Shown piece by piece: positions 45,884 through 57,689 of a DNA stretch of 64,000 nt. Position 1 is the stretch's first letter. Each line of letters starts with the position of its first letter. A model generated the notes under the pieces. The model ran no database searches. It was not told the DNA's origin and worked only from the letters and a program-made list of their open reading frames with translations. Source of the DNA: Pandoraea anhela (GTDB lineage: Bacteria > Pseudomonadota > Gammaproteobacteria > Burkholderiales > Burkholderiaceae); the NCBI RefSeq assembly GCF_902459655.1, contig NZ_CABPSB010000010.1, positions 1 to 64,000 of the forward strand, read 5' to 3'. A program made the translations under genes and the position numbers.

Positions 45884-46645
45884 TCAATCAAGTGAGTCCT
45901 GGCAACGGAAATACGCCTGGACGCGCGGGGCAATCTCGTCCAGACGAATACATTCGGCGTCCCACGCGCGCGCGAGACGTTCGCAACCGCGCGGTGCCAC
46001 GAGCGACGCGACACCCAGGCCGAGGCGGGCGGGTTCGCAATCGATCACGACGGCGCGATCGAGCGCCGGGGGCCTCGACGGCGTCTCGGCGGTGCGCCCG
46101 TCCGTGAGCAGCCACAACACCTTCACTTGCGACGCATGCCGCCCTCTCGCGCGTTCGGCCCGCGCGAGCAGTCGCGACGCCGCCGCGATACCGGCCGCCA
46201 GCGGCGTGCCGCCACCGCCGCCGATGGGTTCGATCCAGCGCTCGTTCCACCAACGCGGTATGGCGGGGCCGAACAGCACCTCGGCGCGCTCGCCGCCAAA
46301 GCGGATCAGCGCGACGTCGGATCGTGCGCGCGCCAACCGGTCGAAGCTGTCGAGCAACCAGCCCTTCGCCTGCGCGAGACTGCCGAGCATCGATGCCGAA
46401 CCGTCGAGCACGAACACATGCAGTTCGCCGCGCGGCGCGTTGTCCACCGCGTAGCGCAGATGTGTCCTGTTCAACCGTTGCGGGCCTTTGCGCAGTAGCG
46501 TCTCGCCCCAGTCGATGCGCGTCGGCGCGAGCGTCCCGACGCGAGGTTTCGCTCGCCGGATCGTTCGTCCGACCAGCCCTGCACCGCGTAACCACCGGGA
46601 TCCGCCGGACGAGCCGACGGAGGCGCGCGCCCGGTGGCTCAGCGT
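45884..46645 (-). CDS. chlD: ChlD VWA domain, -1 frame extension of the chlI-like gene
   Basis: This frame has no ATG or GTG start: it is open without interruption from the A7 run at 46645-46651 to the TGA at 45884. It encodes a basic linker, then RIDWGETLLRKGPQRLNRTH, the usual ChlD lead-in, and a von Willebrand A domain with the MIDAS motif VFVLDGSASML. GGGGGTPLAAGIAAASRLLA and VLWLLTDGRTAE follow. Joined by a -1 shift to the ChlI-like frame it gives a 627-aa ChlD, normal for the medium subunit of chelatases. A TTG at 46474 could give only a truncated VWA protein. It is probably the CobT-like partner of CobN. Confidence 0.82.
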   Translation of the reverse strand, partial: TLSHRARASVGSSGGSRWLRGAGLVGRTIRRAKPRVGTLAPTRIDWGETLLRKGPQRLNRTHLRYAVDNAPRGELHVFVLDGSASMLGSLAQAKGWLLDSFDRLARARSDVALIRFGGERAEVLFGPAIPRWWNERWIEPIGGGGGTPLAAGIAAASRLLARAERARGRHASQVKVLWLLTDGRTAETPSRPPALDRAVVIDCEPARLGLGVASLVAPRGCERLARAWDAECIRLDEIAPRVQAYFRCQDSLD

Positions 46646-46651
46646 TTTTTT
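46592..46651 (-). promoter_or_regulatory. Programmed -1 ribosomal frameshift signal in chlD
   Basis: On the minus strand the 0 frame reads TCA AAA AAA CGC TGA, giving a perfect X-XXY-YYZ heptamer A-AAA-AAA at 46651-46645, two codons before the stop. Seven nt further, CCACCGGG (46637-46630) pairs perfectly with CCCGGTGG (46599-46592), with extra pairing inside (CGCC/GGCG). Slippery site, 7-nt spacer and stem form the standard -1 frameshift arrangement and lead into the open VWA frame. Confidence 0.82.
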
Positions 46652-47766
46652 GACGACAGGGGGACCACGCCCTTCACGCGTGTCGTTCCGGTCGGCTCAG
46701 GCGGCAGATACCCCCAATCGGAAGTGTCGCGGCCCGACGCTCCGGCGCTCTGCGCCGACTTTCCTGCCTCTCCGGCCTGCCCTGCCTGCCCTGCCTCTGC
46801 GACTTCCGATGCCCCCGGTTTCGCGCTGCCCGCCTGCCCCGACGCACTTGCGGACGACGACGCCTGCGGTTGCCCATGGCGGCGGTGCCGCAGCACGGCC
46901 GGTGAGACGCGCTCGACGTGCCCGCGCGTGAGCACCGGCGACGCCTCGAGCGCCGCCAGTGCACGCGCCGCGCGCAGCATCACGAGGTCCGCGCGCATGC
47001 CGTCCACCCGGGCTTCGATACACAGCGCGCTCACCGCGTCGTGCACCTCGTCGCCGATCGCGACGCCGGGCAAGGCCTCACGGGCGTCGAGAATACGTCG
47101 ACGAAGCTCGGCCTGCGCCTGCGCATACTGCGCGTGAAACGCCGCCGGATCGAGATCGAACGCCAGACGCGTCTTCACGATTTTCTGACGCACTTGCGGA
47201 TCGAAGCAGTTTTCCAGCTCGACCATCAGCCCGAAACGATCCAGCAACTGGGGCCGCAATTCGCCCTCTTCCGGATTCATCGTGCCGACCAGCATGAAAT
47301 GCGCGGCATGCCGATGCGATACACCGTCGCGCTCCACGACATTGATGCCGCTCGCGGCCACGTCCAGCACCACGTCGACGAGCCCGTCGGGCAGCAGATT
47401 CACTTCGTCGACATACAACACGCCCTGATGCGCTTGCGCGAGCAGCCCCGGCGAGAACTTCACCCCACCGCCGCGCAGCGCTTCGTCGATGTCGAGCGTG
47501 CCGATGAGGCGCGCTTCGCTCGCGCCCAACGGCAGCGTGACGAAGGGGCAATCGGGCAACAGATCCGCGAGCGAGCGCGCCGCCGTCGATTTCGCGGTGC
47601 CGCGCGGGCCGCTCACCAGCACACCGCCGATCGAGGGATCCACCGCGATGAGCAGCAGCGCTTCGCGCAACGGCGTCTGAGCGACGAGCGCCGTCAGCGG
47701 GAACGGCGGCGGCAGCGGGGAAGCCGGGGAAGCCGTGGATGCGGCCAATTCGGTGTTCGATGTCAC
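46639..47766 (-). CDS. chlD: ChlI-like AAA+ ATPase, 0-frame product of chlD (cobaltochelatase small subunit)
   Basis: A 375-aa AAA+ protein: Walker A VSGPRGTAKST near residue 53, LIGTLDIDEALRGG, Walker B GVLYVDEVNLLPDGLVDVVL, VGTMNPEEGELRPQLLDRFG (sensor/Arg region), DLVMLRAARALAALEASPV. After residue 300 it becomes a low-complexity Ala/Gly/Gln/Ser linker. It resembles BchI/ChlI of Mg-chelatase, but the neighbours (cobN, cobW, NiCoT) indicate cobalt chelation. GTG at 47766 overlaps the cobN TGA (GTGA). Normal termination at 46639 gives the small subunit; a -1 shift at A7 yields the full ChlD. Confidence 0.88.
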   Translation of the reverse strand: MTSNTELAASTASPASPLPPPFPLTALVAQTPLREALLLIAVDPSIGGVLVSGPRGTAKSTAARSLADLLPDCPFVTLPLGASEARLIGTLDIDEALRGGGVKFSPGLLAQAHQGVLYVDEVNLLPDGLVDVVLDVAASGINVVERDGVSHRHAAHFMLVGTMNPEEGELRPQLLDRFGLMVELENCFDPQVRQKIVKTRLAFDLDPAAFHAQYAQAQAELRRRILDAREALPGVAIGDEVHDAVSALCIEARVDGMRADLVMLRAARALAALEASPVLTRGHVERVSPAVLRHRRHGQPQASSSASASGQAGSAKPGASEVAEAGQAGQAGEAGKSAQSAGASGRDTSDWGYLPPEPTGTTRVKGVVPLSSKKR

Positions 47767-50700
47767 GACGCTCTCCGTTCGATTTCGTGCCCGGCGGCCA
47801 ACAGATGACTTTCGATCTGCTCGCGATAAGCGCCGGGCGATTGCCACAGCCCCCGGCCAATCGCTTCGAGCAGGCGTTCGCACACGCCACGCAGCGCGTG
47901 CGGGTTATGACGCTGCATGAACTCGCGCGTGTCGGCGTCGTTCAGGCAGGCGTCGGTCACGAGTCCGTACTGATGGTCCGACACCACGCGGGCGGTCGCG
48001 TCATATCCGAACAGGTAATCGACCGTGGCCGCGATTTCCGCCGCGCCCTTGTAGCCGTGACGCTTCACCCCGTCGAGCCATTTCGGATTGACGACGCGCG
48101 AGCGGATCACGCGCGCGATTTCTTCCGTCAGCGGGCGCACGCTCGGCGCGTCCGCTCGGCTATGGTCTGCGTGATACACCTCGGGTTGTTGCCCCGAGAA
48201 ATGCCGCACGGCAGCGGTCATGCCGCCCTGAAACTGGTAGTAATCGTTGGAGTCGAGCACGTCGTGCTCGCGATTGTCCTGACTCTGCAAAACGACATCG
48301 ATGCTCGCCAGACGCGTCGCAAACACGCCATAAGCCTGCTCGCCGGCGCTGGCCTGCGCATAGGCGTAACCGCCGGATTCTCGATAGGCGTTTGCGAGAT
48401 CCTCGTCGGTCTGCCACAAGCCGTTGTCGATCATCTCCTGCAGGCCCGCCCCATAGGTGCCGGGACGCGAACTGAAGACCCGCCAGCCCGCGCGCTTACG
48501 CGCTTCGTCGGCGTCGAGTCCACGGGCGATCCACGCGTCGCGCTCGCGCAGCACACGCGCGCGGATCGGGTTGATGTCCTCCGGCTCGTCGAGCGCCGCC
48601 ACGGCCTGCACGGCGGCGTCGAACAGATGCATGACGTTCGGGAAGGCATCGCGGAAGAAGCCCGACACGCGCAACGTGACGTCGATACGGGGTCGCTCCA
48701 TGCCGCCCGGCGGCAGAATTTCGAAGTCCGTGACCCGATGACTGCCCGGCGCCCATTTGGGACGCACCCCCAGCAGCGCAAACGCCTGCGCGATATCGTC
48801 GCCGCCGGTGCGCATCGTGGCGGTGCCCCACACGGACAGGCCAATGGCGCGTGGGTAATCGCCGTGATCCTGCAAGTGACGCTCGATCAACTGACGCGCC
48901 GATTTCACGCCCAGCGCCCATGCCGTCTGCGTGGGAATCGCACGTGTGTCGACGGAGTAGAAGTTGCGGCCCGTGGGCAGCACGTCAGGTCGCCCGCGCG
49001 AGGGCGCGCCGCTCGGCCCCGGCGGCACGAAACGGCCTTCCAGACCGCGCCGCAGGTGGCGCAACTCCTCACTGCCGCAGGCGTCCAGCGATGGCAGGAC
49101 GTCGTCTCTCGCGCGCGTCAGCACGTCGCGCGTCGCAGGCAAGTGCTGCGTCTTGCCGTCGAGCGACGCGGCGTCTTCGCCGGTCAGCGTCTCCAGCAGG
49201 CTCGCCCCCAGCAACTCCAAACGTTCGCGCGTATCGCCCTGATGACGCCACGGCGCATCGCTTACCTGTGCGAGCAACGCCGGACGCGGCCCGTCCCACG
49301 GCGTCGACCATTCGGCTTTGAGCGGGTCGAACCGATCGTCGATGTGCAAGTCTCTCGCGAGTGCGTCAATGAGGCTGGCATCGCGCCCCTGGCCGCCGCG
49401 CACCGGAAAGCGCATCAGCGCGAGCAGCGTGTCGCGGCGTTCGCGCCCGGCCGGCGAGCGGCCGAAGATGTGCAGACCGTCGCGAATCTGCGTCTCTTTC
49501 AGCTCGCATAGCCACGTGTCCACACGCGTGAGCAGTTCGTCTTCCGCATCGGTATCGCTCGGGGCGGACAGGCTCAGCTCTTCGTGCAGACGGTGACGCA
49601 CGATGGTCTCGAGAATCGTGCTGCGCAGCAGTTTGGCGCGGCGCGCGTCGACCATCAGCGCTTCGTAATACTCGTCGACCTGCCGCTCCAGATCCTGAAG
49701 CGGACCATACGATTCGGCCCGCGTGAGCGGGGGCATCAGGTGATCGATGATCACGGCCTGGGCGCGACGCTTCGCCTGACTGCCCTCGCCCGGATCGTTG
49801 ACGATGAACGGGTAAAGGTGCGGCAGCGGCCCGAGCGTCAGGTCAGGCCAGCAACTGTCGGACAGCGCCACGCTCTTGCCGGGCAGCCATTCGAGGCTGC
49901 CGTGTTTGCCGACATGCACGACGGCATCGACATCGACCGTGTGACGCAGCCAGAAATAGAACGCGAGATAGGCATGCGGCGGGACCAGTTCGGCATCGTG
50001 ATAGCTGGCGTAATCGCCGTCGACACGCGAGCGCGAGGGCTGGATGCCGATGAACACGTTGCCGCAGCGCCAACCGGCGATCATGAAGCGCCCCTGCCGC
50101 AGCGTCGGGTCCTGATGCGCCGGCCCCCAACGCTCGTTGAGCGCATCACGCACGTCGGTCGGCAGTGTTGCGAAGGCGGCGAGATAGTCGTCGAGCGCGT
50201 AACTCTGAAAGGCCGGACGCAACGCGCGCATCTCGGGATCGTTCGTCACGCCGCGCGTCAGACGCGCCATGAGCGCGCCGCCGTCGTCCGGCAGGTCGTC
50301 GACGCGATAGCCTTCGTCCCGCAGCATCGTGAGGATCTCGACGACGGACGCCGGCGTGTCGAGTCCGACGCCGTTGCCGATGCGCCCCTCGCTCGCCGGA
50401 TAGTTCGCCAGCACCAGCGCAAGCCGCTTCTGCGCGTTGGGTTTGGTGCGCAGCAGACACCAGCGACGGCTGAGTTCCGCCACGAACGCGACGCGCTCCC
50501 TGTCCGGCTGATACCGCACGACATCCACTTCGGTGCGCGGGCAGCGATAGTCGAGGCCCTTGAAGCTGATCGCCCGCGTGATGATGCGGCCGTCGACCTC
50601 CGGCAGCGCCACGTGCATCGCGATGTCGCGGGAATTGAGGCCCTGATTGTCCTTGACCCAGTCGTCGCGATTGCCCCCGCTCAGAATCACCTGCAACACC

Positions 50701-51578
50701 GGTGCGTCGCTGCCGAAGATTTGCGACTGGCGCGGATCGTCCGGCGTCGAGGTGGAAAAGGCCGTGGTGTTGAGCACCAGCGAGACGTCGTGCGCGTCGC
50801 AGAGTTGCTGCACGACATCACGGCTGAGCGCGTCCTTGAGCGATGTGATCGCAATCGGCAACGGATTCAGCCCGCGCACGTGCAACGCGTCGATCAGGGT
50901 ATCGAAGACCCCCGTATTCGCCGCCTGCAAGTGCGCGCGGTAGAACAGGATCGCCACGACGGGCGCGCCGGCATGCCAACTGGCTTGCCAATCGTCCATC
51001 GTCGCGTTGCGGGTGTGCGATTGGGGATTGGGATGGTACAGCGTGGCGTTGGGCACCGCGACCGGCAGCGGCGGCTCGTCGCCCCAGCCGAGTGCGTGCC
51101 AGGCGATAGCGCGCAAGAACGCCTCGGCATTGACGGCCCCCCCCTGACGCAGGTAGCGCCACAGGCGCGTGCAGAACTCGGGGCTTGCCGTGCTCAGCGC
51201 GGTCAGATTCGGGTCTTCCTGCAAGTCGCCGGAGAACATCACCAGCATCTGGCCGCGACGCTGCGCCAACGCGACGATCTGCTCGATGCCGTAAGGCCAG
51301 TAAGCTTCGCCGCCGAGGTGATCGACCACCACGACGCGGGCATGTTGCAAGACGTCGTCGACATAGAAGTCGACCGACGCCGGCTGCCGCAGGTACGTGA
51401 CGTTGGCGAGCCGCAGACTCGGGAAATCGTCGCCCAGGCGCTCGACCACGCTCGCGAGCAACGACAGGGTCGTGTCGGCCGAGCTCAGCACGACGATGTC
51501 GGCGGGCTGCTGATCGATGCGGATGACGCCGGCGGCGTCGTCGACAAAACCGCCGGGGACTGTCCGTAACAGGTGCAT
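47763..51578 (-). CDS. cobN: Cobaltochelatase large subunit
   Basis: A 1271-aa CobN/BchH-type chelatase subunit: VVVVDHLGGEAYWPYGIEQI, AIAWHALGWGDEPPLPVAVP, VDAVVHVGKHGSLEWLPGKS, HLYPFIVNDPGEGSQAKRRA and FQGGMTAAVRHFSGQQPEVY are characteristic. It inserts Co2+ into hydrogenobyrinate a,c-diamide, with an ATPase pair that here seems to be the ChlD frameshift products. Length matches CobN (about 1250-1300 aa). It follows cobW by 19 nt and overlaps the chlI-like start. Confidence 0.95.
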   Translation of the reverse strand: MHLLRTVPGGFVDDAAGVIRIDQQPADIVVLSSADTTLSLLASVVERLGDDFPSLRLANVTYLRQPASVDFYVDDVLQHARVVVVDHLGGEAYWPYGIEQIVALAQRRGQMLVMFSGDLQEDPNLTALSTASPEFCTRLWRYLRQGGAVNAEAFLRAIAWHALGWGDEPPLPVAVPNATLYHPNPQSHTRNATMDDWQASWHAGAPVVAILFYRAHLQAANTGVFDTLIDALHVRGLNPLPIAITSLKDALSRDVVQQLCDAHDVSLVLNTTAFSTSTPDDPRQSQIFGSDAPVLQVILSGGNRDDWVKDNQGLNSRDIAMHVALPEVDGRIITRAISFKGLDYRCPRTEVDVVRYQPDRERVAFVAELSRRWCLLRTKPNAQKRLALVLANYPASEGRIGNGVGLDTPASVVEILTMLRDEGYRVDDLPDDGGALMARLTRGVTNDPEMRALRPAFQSYALDDYLAAFATLPTDVRDALNERWGPAHQDPTLRQGRFMIAGWRCGNVFIGIQPSRSRVDGDYASYHDAELVPPHAYLAFYFWLRHTVDVDAVVHVGKHGSLEWLPGKSVALSDSCWPDLTLGPLPHLYPFIVNDPGEGSQAKRRAQAVIIDHLMPPLTRAESYGPLQDLERQVDEYYEALMVDARRAKLLRSTILETIVRHRLHEELSLSAPSDTDAEDELLTRVDTWLCELKETQIRDGLHIFGRSPAGRERRDTLLALMRFPVRGGQGRDASLIDALARDLHIDDRFDPLKAEWSTPWDGPRPALLAQVSDAPWRHQGDTRERLELLGASLLETLTGEDAASLDGKTQHLPATRDVLTRARDDVLPSLDACGSEELRHLRRGLEGRFVPPGPSGAPSRGRPDVLPTGRNFYSVDTRAIPTQTAWALGVKSARQLIERHLQDHGDYPRAIGLSVWGTATMRTGGDDIAQAFALLGVRPKWAPGSHRVTDFEILPPGGMERPRIDVTLRVSGFFRDAFPNVMHLFDAAVQAVAALDEPEDINPIRARVLRERDAWIARGLDADEARKRAGWRVFSSRPGTYGAGLQEMIDNGLWQTDEDLANAYRESGGYAYAQASAGEQAYGVFATRLASIDVVLQSQDNREHDVLDSNDYYQFQGGMTAAVRHFSGQQPEVYHADHSRADAPSVRPLTEEIARVIRSRVVNPKWLDGVKRHGYKGAAEIAATVDYLFGYDATARVVSDHQYGLVTDACLNDADTREFMQRHNPHALRGVCERLLEAIGRGLWQSPGAYREQIESHLLAAGHEIERRAS

Positions 51579-52707: not shown

Positions 52708-52907
52708 GGAAAAAAGCAAAGCGTGGTGGCACGCGTCGTCCGGCCGGTCGCATCATCGGTAAAGTCGGTGTCGCCGGCATGACCGTTCGACCTGCCAGGC
52801 AGGGAACGACCGCGCCGCCGGTGACGGCTGCATCGGGAAAGCGGAGCCAACGTGGCAAAACTGAAGGGGTGACTGCACACCGCCTACCCGCAGTGCCAAT
52901 CGTCTTC

Positions 52908-53164
52908 TCCGGCCGGTATCCGGGCTGACGAAATGGCCGCTTCACCTTCCCACGCCGCCATCACAGGCTTGAGCGCAGTGGTCTCGCCCCGCAAAACGCA
53001 TGCGGGGTTGAAGTCGGCCTGGCGTCGCATCACTGCGGCGCCTTCGTTTCACCGTTGCGGGGGCAGCACAGGCTGGGGCGTCGCGTCGCACCCATGGTGG
53101 GGGGCGCGCCGCCCGTCTGTTTCCCGTTTAACTGCGCACGCCTGAACGTGTGCGCGAGCACCAG
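52908..53164 (-). ncRNA. Cobalamin (B12) riboswitch upstream of cobW
   Basis: On the minus strand the ordered conserved blocks are: GGTGCTCG (53162-53155), AACGGGAA (53128-53121), GCTGCCCCCGCAACGGTGA (53067-53049), CCACTG (52981-52976), GGGAAGGTG (52951-52943) and AGCCCGGATACCGGCC (52926-52911). These match the AdoCbl-aptamer core including the B12 box. It lies 200 nt before cobW and should lower expression of cobW-cobN-chlD-NiCoT when cobalamin is high. Ends are approximate. The expression platform (52720-52907) shows no clear T-run terminator, so translational control is likely. Confidence 0.92.
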
Positions 53165-53174
53165 ATTAGCCGCG

Positions 53175-53203
53175 AGTGTAGGTGCCGGATACCGCCCCGT
53201 CAA
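53175..53203 (-). promoter_or_regulatory. Sigma-70 promoter of the riboswitch-cobW unit
   Basis: The minus strand has -35 TTGACG (53203-53198), a 17-bp spacer, and -10 TACACT (53180-53175). Transcription should start near 53167, a few nt before the first conserved riboswitch block. The position supports the riboswitch boundary. Confidence 0.78.
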
Positions 53204-57612: not shown

Positions 57613-57689
57613 TGGCCTGCCCAGAGGGATTCGAACCCCCGACCGTCGGCTTAGAAGGCCGATGCTCTATCCAACTGAGCTATGGGCAG
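57613..57689 (-). tRNA. tRNA-Arg (anticodon TCT)
   Basis: The minus strand folds as a complete 77-nt cloverleaf: acceptor arms CTGCCCA and TGGGCAG, D arm GCTC-AGTTGGATA-GAGC, anticodon arm TCGGC-CTTCTAA-GCCGA with anticodon TCT, T arm GGGGG-TTCGAAT-CCCTC, discriminator G and encoded CCA. It reads AGA codons. Confidence 0.97.

Follow-up and report, generated by a model that had tools for sequence, protein, structure and literature searches.

A single gene of Pandoraea anhela very probably makes both CobN helper subunits for cobalt insertion. The gene, fs-chlD, lies on the minus strand of the window, which is the whole 64,000-nucleotide stretch of DNA analysed here. From the comparison of its sequence with those of its relatives, it is highly likely that a -1 slip on the heptamer A_AAA_AAA, aided by a downstream hairpin, gives rise to a small ATPase as well as a longer subunit carrying a von Willebrand factor A (VWA) domain, both acting as partners of CobN. 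The original prediction had proposed such programmed -1 frameshifting into ChlI-like and ChlD-like subunits for CobN, and this is the best-supported reading, in that the slippery heptamer is conserved and the stem shows covariation among the relatives whose alignment had been suggested as a check.

Two reading frames beside cobN

The relevant features of the window are the following.

46639..47766, minus strand: 0-frame of fs-chlD, coding for a 375-aa ChlI-type AAA+ ATPase (small subunit), with a presumed GTG start that overlaps the cobN stop
45884..46645, minus strand: -1-frame part of fs-chlD, coding for a linker and a VWA domain and completing the 627-aa medium subunit
46645..46651, minus strand: slippery heptamer A_AAA_AAA
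46639..46641, minus strand: 0-frame stop TGA, within the spacer and one codon past the heptamer
47763..51578, minus strand: cobN, large cobaltochelatase subunit, directly upstream (TIGR02257, 1589.4 bits, cut-off 822.05)
52894..53180, minus strand: cobalamin riboswitch (RF00174, 42.8 bits, gathering threshold 31.5)
57616..57689, minus strand: tRNA gene (RF00005, 70.8 bits)

Read on the minus strand from the GTG at 47766, the first frame runs for 375 codons and ends with TCA-AAA-AAA-CGC-TGA, as originally described, and the A7 run at 46651-46645 is in the right phase for a -1 slip. Re-reading of one base at this run leaves the frame open to 45884, and the product lengths of 375 and 627 aa are both confirmed from the frames. 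The 0-frame half matches PF01078, PF07728 and PF17863 in Pfam, together with TIGR02442 and TIGR02030, which identifies it as a ChlI-type AAA+ ATPase, and the -1 half contains a Pfam VWA domain. For the 627-aa product as a whole, TIGR02442 (NCBIfam Cob-chelat-sub, an equivalog) is the best family match, at 468.8 bits, which is under the curated cut-off of 779.45.

A cobW-type GTPase is situated upstream of fs-chlD on the same strand, along with cobN and the riboswitch, and a NicO nickel/cobalt transporter lies downstream. Because the RF00174 riboswitch precedes cobW, cobN, fs-chlD and NicO on one strand, these genes are probably B12-controlled as a set. The organism's own genome (an assembly of 61 contigs) shows no match to CobS, and the ATPase half has just three other matches there, all weak, with E between 2e-7 and 2e-5 and 31-32% identity. 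Among 32 Pandoraea genomes, cobN and the chlD VWA half occur in an identical set of five, the window's included, and neither is present in the other 27; this patchy spread suggests that the B12 set is gained or lost as a block.

The site in related bacteria

From a larger group, 398 Burkholderiaceae genomes were taken for the survey, and at least 226 of them match the C-terminal part of chlD. From the better-scoring of the matches listed, 84 family loci were taken which, with 20 named loci and the window, give 105 loci with both halves. The VWA half is in the -1 frame in 103 of these, in the +1 frame in none and in the same frame in two. One of the latter (L018) has a run of N in its contig between the site and the VWA domain, and the other (L021) is a distant metagenome-assembled genome with one intact frame. 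Of the 103 loci of the -1 type, 11 are repeats whose genomes are present in two collections, and without these 92 distinct loci remain.

Among the 92, the heptamer is A_AAA_AAA in 91 and A_AAA_AAG in the remaining one (L005), and in every case a single codon separates it from a stop (90 TGA, 2 TAG). Runs of six or eight A, either of which the original prediction had held to speak against it, are found in none, and the single A6G variant leaves a usable heptamer. The lysine codons of the slip site are AAA in 183 of 184 instances, compared to 164 AAA and 296 AAG in the upstream part of the frame (up to 1 kb) in the same 92 genes, these sequences being related and not independent. Judged by this codon usage, the A run in the family is far from codon chance.

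Beyond the 84 family loci, 25 further family genomes were inspected. In fifteen of them (genera g3, g7, g15 and one genome of g11) the A7 heptamer recurs with a stop one codon beyond it, and a hairpin can be made out by eye. The remaining ten (genera g9, g12, g16, g17, g24) have a single frame of 600-831 aa whose identity to the query is 29-37%. Outside the family there are 17 class-level matches besides the window, of which 14 were fetched: four loci (L136-L139) are of the -1 type, with A_AAA_AAG in three and an A10 site in one, and ten are single-frame or separate-gene homologues. The locus with A10 at its frame junction instead of A7 is L139, from another family of the class.

Relatives with an intact frame or a separate VWA gene had likewise been named as contrary evidence. 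No intact single frame is found among the 103 frame-shifted loci, yet single-frame and separate-gene forms do exist, and only in distant homologues with approximately 28-42% identity in the VWA half; L136-L139 are of similar identity yet frame-shifted. Open -1 frames of about 685 aa were also considered as intact fusions and were rejected as such, the ones fetched (L053-L062 and L093) all having the heptamer and the 0-frame stop.

The hairpin and a candidate third helix

Downstream of the heptamer, the RNA can form a hairpin in two tiers, termed S1 and S3.

46630..46638, minus strand: outer stem S1, 5' arm, pairing with 46591-46599; the outermost pair is G.U
46591..46599, minus strand: outer stem S1, 3' arm
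46614..46621, minus strand: inner stem S3, 5' arm, pairing with 46601-46608
46601..46608, minus strand: inner stem S3, 3' arm

The 8-bp stem first described (46637-46630 with 46599-46592) is present, yet an additional G.U pair (46638/46591) is possible, which would shorten the 7-nt spacer to 6 nt. The inner pairing announced with it corresponds to an 8-bp helix, 46621-46614 with 46608-46601. Across the family the hairpin begins 6-7 nt past the heptamer, the 5' bulge measures 7-11 nt in most members, and S3 is set against the 3' arm.

Pairing was assessed in an alignment of 68 of the 92 sequences (64 distinct rows), leaving out 22 loci of genus g10, which have a longer outer stem and another bulge register, as well as L049 and L052, which have a long insert. 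In these 68 sequences 93.4% of the S1 cells and 91.8% of the S3 cells are paired, and all slid registers remain under 54%; the cells changed on both sides number 80 for S1 and 97 for S3. On a tree built from the protein outside the signal, 12 same-branch compensatory changes are counted for S1 and 7 for S3. When codons are resampled with the -1-frame protein fixed, only 68.8% (S1) and 61.7% (S3) are paired, versus 93.2% and 91.7% observed, and because the resampled sequences pair far less, the pairing of both stems looks selected at the RNA level.

The evidence for the structure is from the family and not from a single-sequence fold. The window's own fold does not stand out from shuffled sequences, with z at 0.24 over 121 nt and at -1.21 over 54 nt. 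Over 54 nt, the family mean z is -2.89 at the site versus -0.13 at a control 300 nt on (92 sequences each), and the site is the most stable of 51 windows in its gene in 16 of the 92. No Rfam model matches the signal; between 46400 and 46900, at E<=1, there is only a sub-threshold microRNA family on the opposite strand. A covariance model (R1) finds the window's site, which is one of its training members, and nothing else in the 64 kb at E<=1. It generalises weakly, since it matched 15 of 29 other loci with a best E of 0.002 and mostly above 0.01. In L123 (g15), the bulged two-tier form is replaced by a very long, near-continuous hairpin of about 20 bp by eye, just past the heptamer, so that by its sequence the outer fold is kept and its construction is different.

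A third helix, S2, may be formed between the bulge and the strand 3' of the hairpin. Its two candidate sides, both suggestive, are these.

46622..46626, minus strand: candidate helix S2, 5' side, GCGCC in the bulge
46581..46585, minus strand: candidate helix S2, 3' side, GGTGC

The bulge segment 46626-46622 can pair with 46585-46581, with one G.U pair. It is proposed, tentatively and at somewhat less than even chances, that a local pseudoknot of three helices drives chlD frameshifting in Pandoraea, Paraburkholderia, Trinickia and the genus g11 (presumably Burkholderia), the bulge being paired with a strand about 5 nt beyond the hairpin (8-11 nt in some). The outer hairpin would then be family-wide, and the bulge pairing a clade-specific addition.

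Support for S2 is split, and the helix is best called suggestive. In the fixed register 79.1% of its cells pair, versus 31-41% in slid registers and 70.3% after shuffling (none of 500 shuffles reaches the observed value), and the covariation score is 0.228 versus 0.091. With the protein fixed and codons resampled, all five pairs are formed in 29 of the 68 sequences versus 4.3 (sd 1.8) expected, and in 41 of the 68 versus 7.2 (sd 2.4) when the partner may lie 0, 3 or 6 nt further; among seven control registers an excess appears in one (9.4 points) and none in the other six. Variant forms include GAGCC/GGCTC (L005), GGCCC/GGGCC (L006) and GGGCC/GGTCC (L038); in two more, ATGCC/GGCAT (L046-L048) and GGACC/GGTCC (L036), the partner lies another 3 nt downstream.

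Against this stand the tree-based count, three of the five Pandoraea loci and other genera. The tree gives three same-branch compensatory changes, while the best of 75 registers, a wrong one, gives six; moreover, only three S2 pairs are changed on both sides, which is no excess over shuffles (189 of 500 reach that number). Of the five Pandoraea loci, only the window and L002 have S2 in register, whereas L003, L023 and L024 have one to three of the five pairs in register and at best four of five at other offsets. Genus g10 has a different S2 register or none that is clear, and the bulge of the g3 loci appears by eye to be too short. A 5-nt link past a 9-10-bp stem would also be sterically tight. 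An early test of bulge-tail pairing, in which there was hardly any excess, if any, over permuted tails and none when compared with a far tail, was invalid because the motif search had misplaced the 3' arm in many sequences; the arm was later placed by complementarity, which still misplaced L049 and L052, both absent from the alignment of 68. A search of the literature by titles and abstract openings, which is not proof of absence in print, found no description of such bulge-tail pairing. If S2 is real, the frameshift yield, and hence the ratio of small to medium subunit, could be tuned apart from the hairpin.

Mechanism, alternatives and known systems

From what is observed directly, namely the frames, the site, the domains, their conservation and covariation, and the gene neighbourhood, we infer the slip itself, its yield, the small:medium ratio and the assembly of the enzyme. 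Most ribosomes would read AAA-AAA-CGC and halt at the UGA, giving the small ATPase subunit as the commoner product; because the stop sits within the spacer, those that do not slip would add one residue and then stop. A minority, with the two lysine codons in the P and A sites, would be stalled by the hairpin at the mRNA entry, 6-7 nt downstream, and would slip back one base on A_AAA_AAA into the -1 frame, giving the longer and rarer subunit with its VWA domain. Both products contain the AAA+ domain and, in the role of CobS and CobT, may form the complex with which CobN inserts cobalt during the aerobic synthesis of B12. Against this reading it counts that the one-sequence fold is no better than shuffles, that the 627-aa product falls short of the TIGR02442 cut-off, and that a separate VWA protein might in principle be started from TTG 46474 or GTG 46447.

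The same 627-aa product would result from transcriptional slippage, in which some transcripts gain an A when RNA polymerase copies the A7 run, and at a homopolymer run the junction is identical either way. The A10 run of the distant relative L139 would make this a better rival at that locus. For the gene studied here it is improbable: polymerase slippage has its usual run-length limits and the run is of seven A in 91 of the 92 loci, the one exception, A6G, has fewer A in a row and is still a ribosomal heptamer, A_AAA_AAG is likewise the site in three distant loci, and a polymerase needs no covarying hairpin at ribosomal spacing.

It is very improbable that the VWA part is instead self-starting, by internal initiation or by coupling to the upstream stop, with no frameshift involved. 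The original prediction allowed this frame neither an ATG nor a GTG start. Indeed no ATG precedes the VWA metal site, yet TTG 46474 and GTG 46447 lie in the -1 frame just before the VWA core, ahead of the Pfam match, and among the 92 loci an ATG occurs between the site and the metal site in 26 and a GTG in 87. Except for a GTG inside a VWA strand (71/92), however, no start codon column is common to more than 24 of the 92 loci. The residues W..TL..K, over 90% conserved in the family's -1 frame, are upstream of both 46474 and 46447, and a separate start would not account for the fixed heptamer and the hairpin. Some sequencing methods are prone to errors at homopolymers, but a sequencing error in the A run, a decayed gene or a recent mutation is barely credible and is already contradicted, because phase, heptamer and stop are identical in 92 distinct loci from separate genomes and the -1 protein is conserved. 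Sequencing error, internal initiation and transcriptional slippage are all rejected as explanations of the family pattern.

As the original prediction stated, the mechanism of frameshifted chlD genes is already published, and the Pandoraea gene is an added case. Antonov, in Mol Biol Evol in 2020, reportedly treated frameshifted chlD genes. The signal can also be compared with dnaX of enterobacteria which, as generally described, likewise combines an A-rich heptamer with a downstream hairpin and yields short and long AAA+ ATPase products from one gene. It differs in having an upstream Shine-Dalgarno-like stimulator; no such stimulator is found for fs-chlD, since the share of the 92 sequences that bind the anti-Shine-Dalgarno sequence below -5 kcal/mol never exceeds 10% across the 40 spacings tried. 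Unlike in dnaX, moreover, the shifted product of fs-chlD is the long one. The ALIL pseudoknots of IS3-family signals, as commonly understood, resemble the proposed S2 in that an unpaired internal stretch of the stimulatory hairpin takes part in a second pairing, yet their partner is an apical loop, whereas in S2 the bulge would pair with single-stranded RNA on the 3' side of the hairpin.

Published fs-chlD genes share with this one a ChlI-like ATPase half in frame 0 ahead of a -1-frame VWA half, an in-phase A-rich heptamer closing the first frame (here kept in relatives), a downstream RNA structure (here seen by family comparison), and a cobN partner with no separate small-subunit gene, ChlI- or CobS-like, found in the genome (here of 61 contigs). 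The 2013 magnesium-chelatase cluster reported in PMC3711429 includes 23 such genes with a -1 shift, from Pseudomonas, Burkholderia, Delftia, Herpetosiphon, Methanocaldococcus and Methanococcus; the same source gives frameshifting in E. coli of 63, 40 and 10% for cassettes of 11, 9 and 7 A, the 7-A cassette being one of this family. According to PMC9227772, fs-chlD supplies both subunits for CobN; the name Pandoraea is absent from the available text of that article. PMC5009743, in its accessible part, describes a strong potential for structure with weakly conserved sequence, whereas here two helices are kept with compensatory changes within the family, plus a possible third.

In the fs-chlD-bearing Burkholderiaceae loci examined, the frameshift is a fixed trait of the cobN neighbourhood and no oddity. 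RefSeq annotated the halves of the cluster genes as two genes (PMC3711429), and such annotation would conceal the supply of both CobN partners by a single gene. Across the related bacteria examined the RNA signal is, by its sequence, closely conserved; its less familiar part is the candidate third helix. Together, the covarying hairpin and this candidate helix offer about 90 natural variants in which to study how a cellular bacterial frameshift signal sets the ratio of its subunits.
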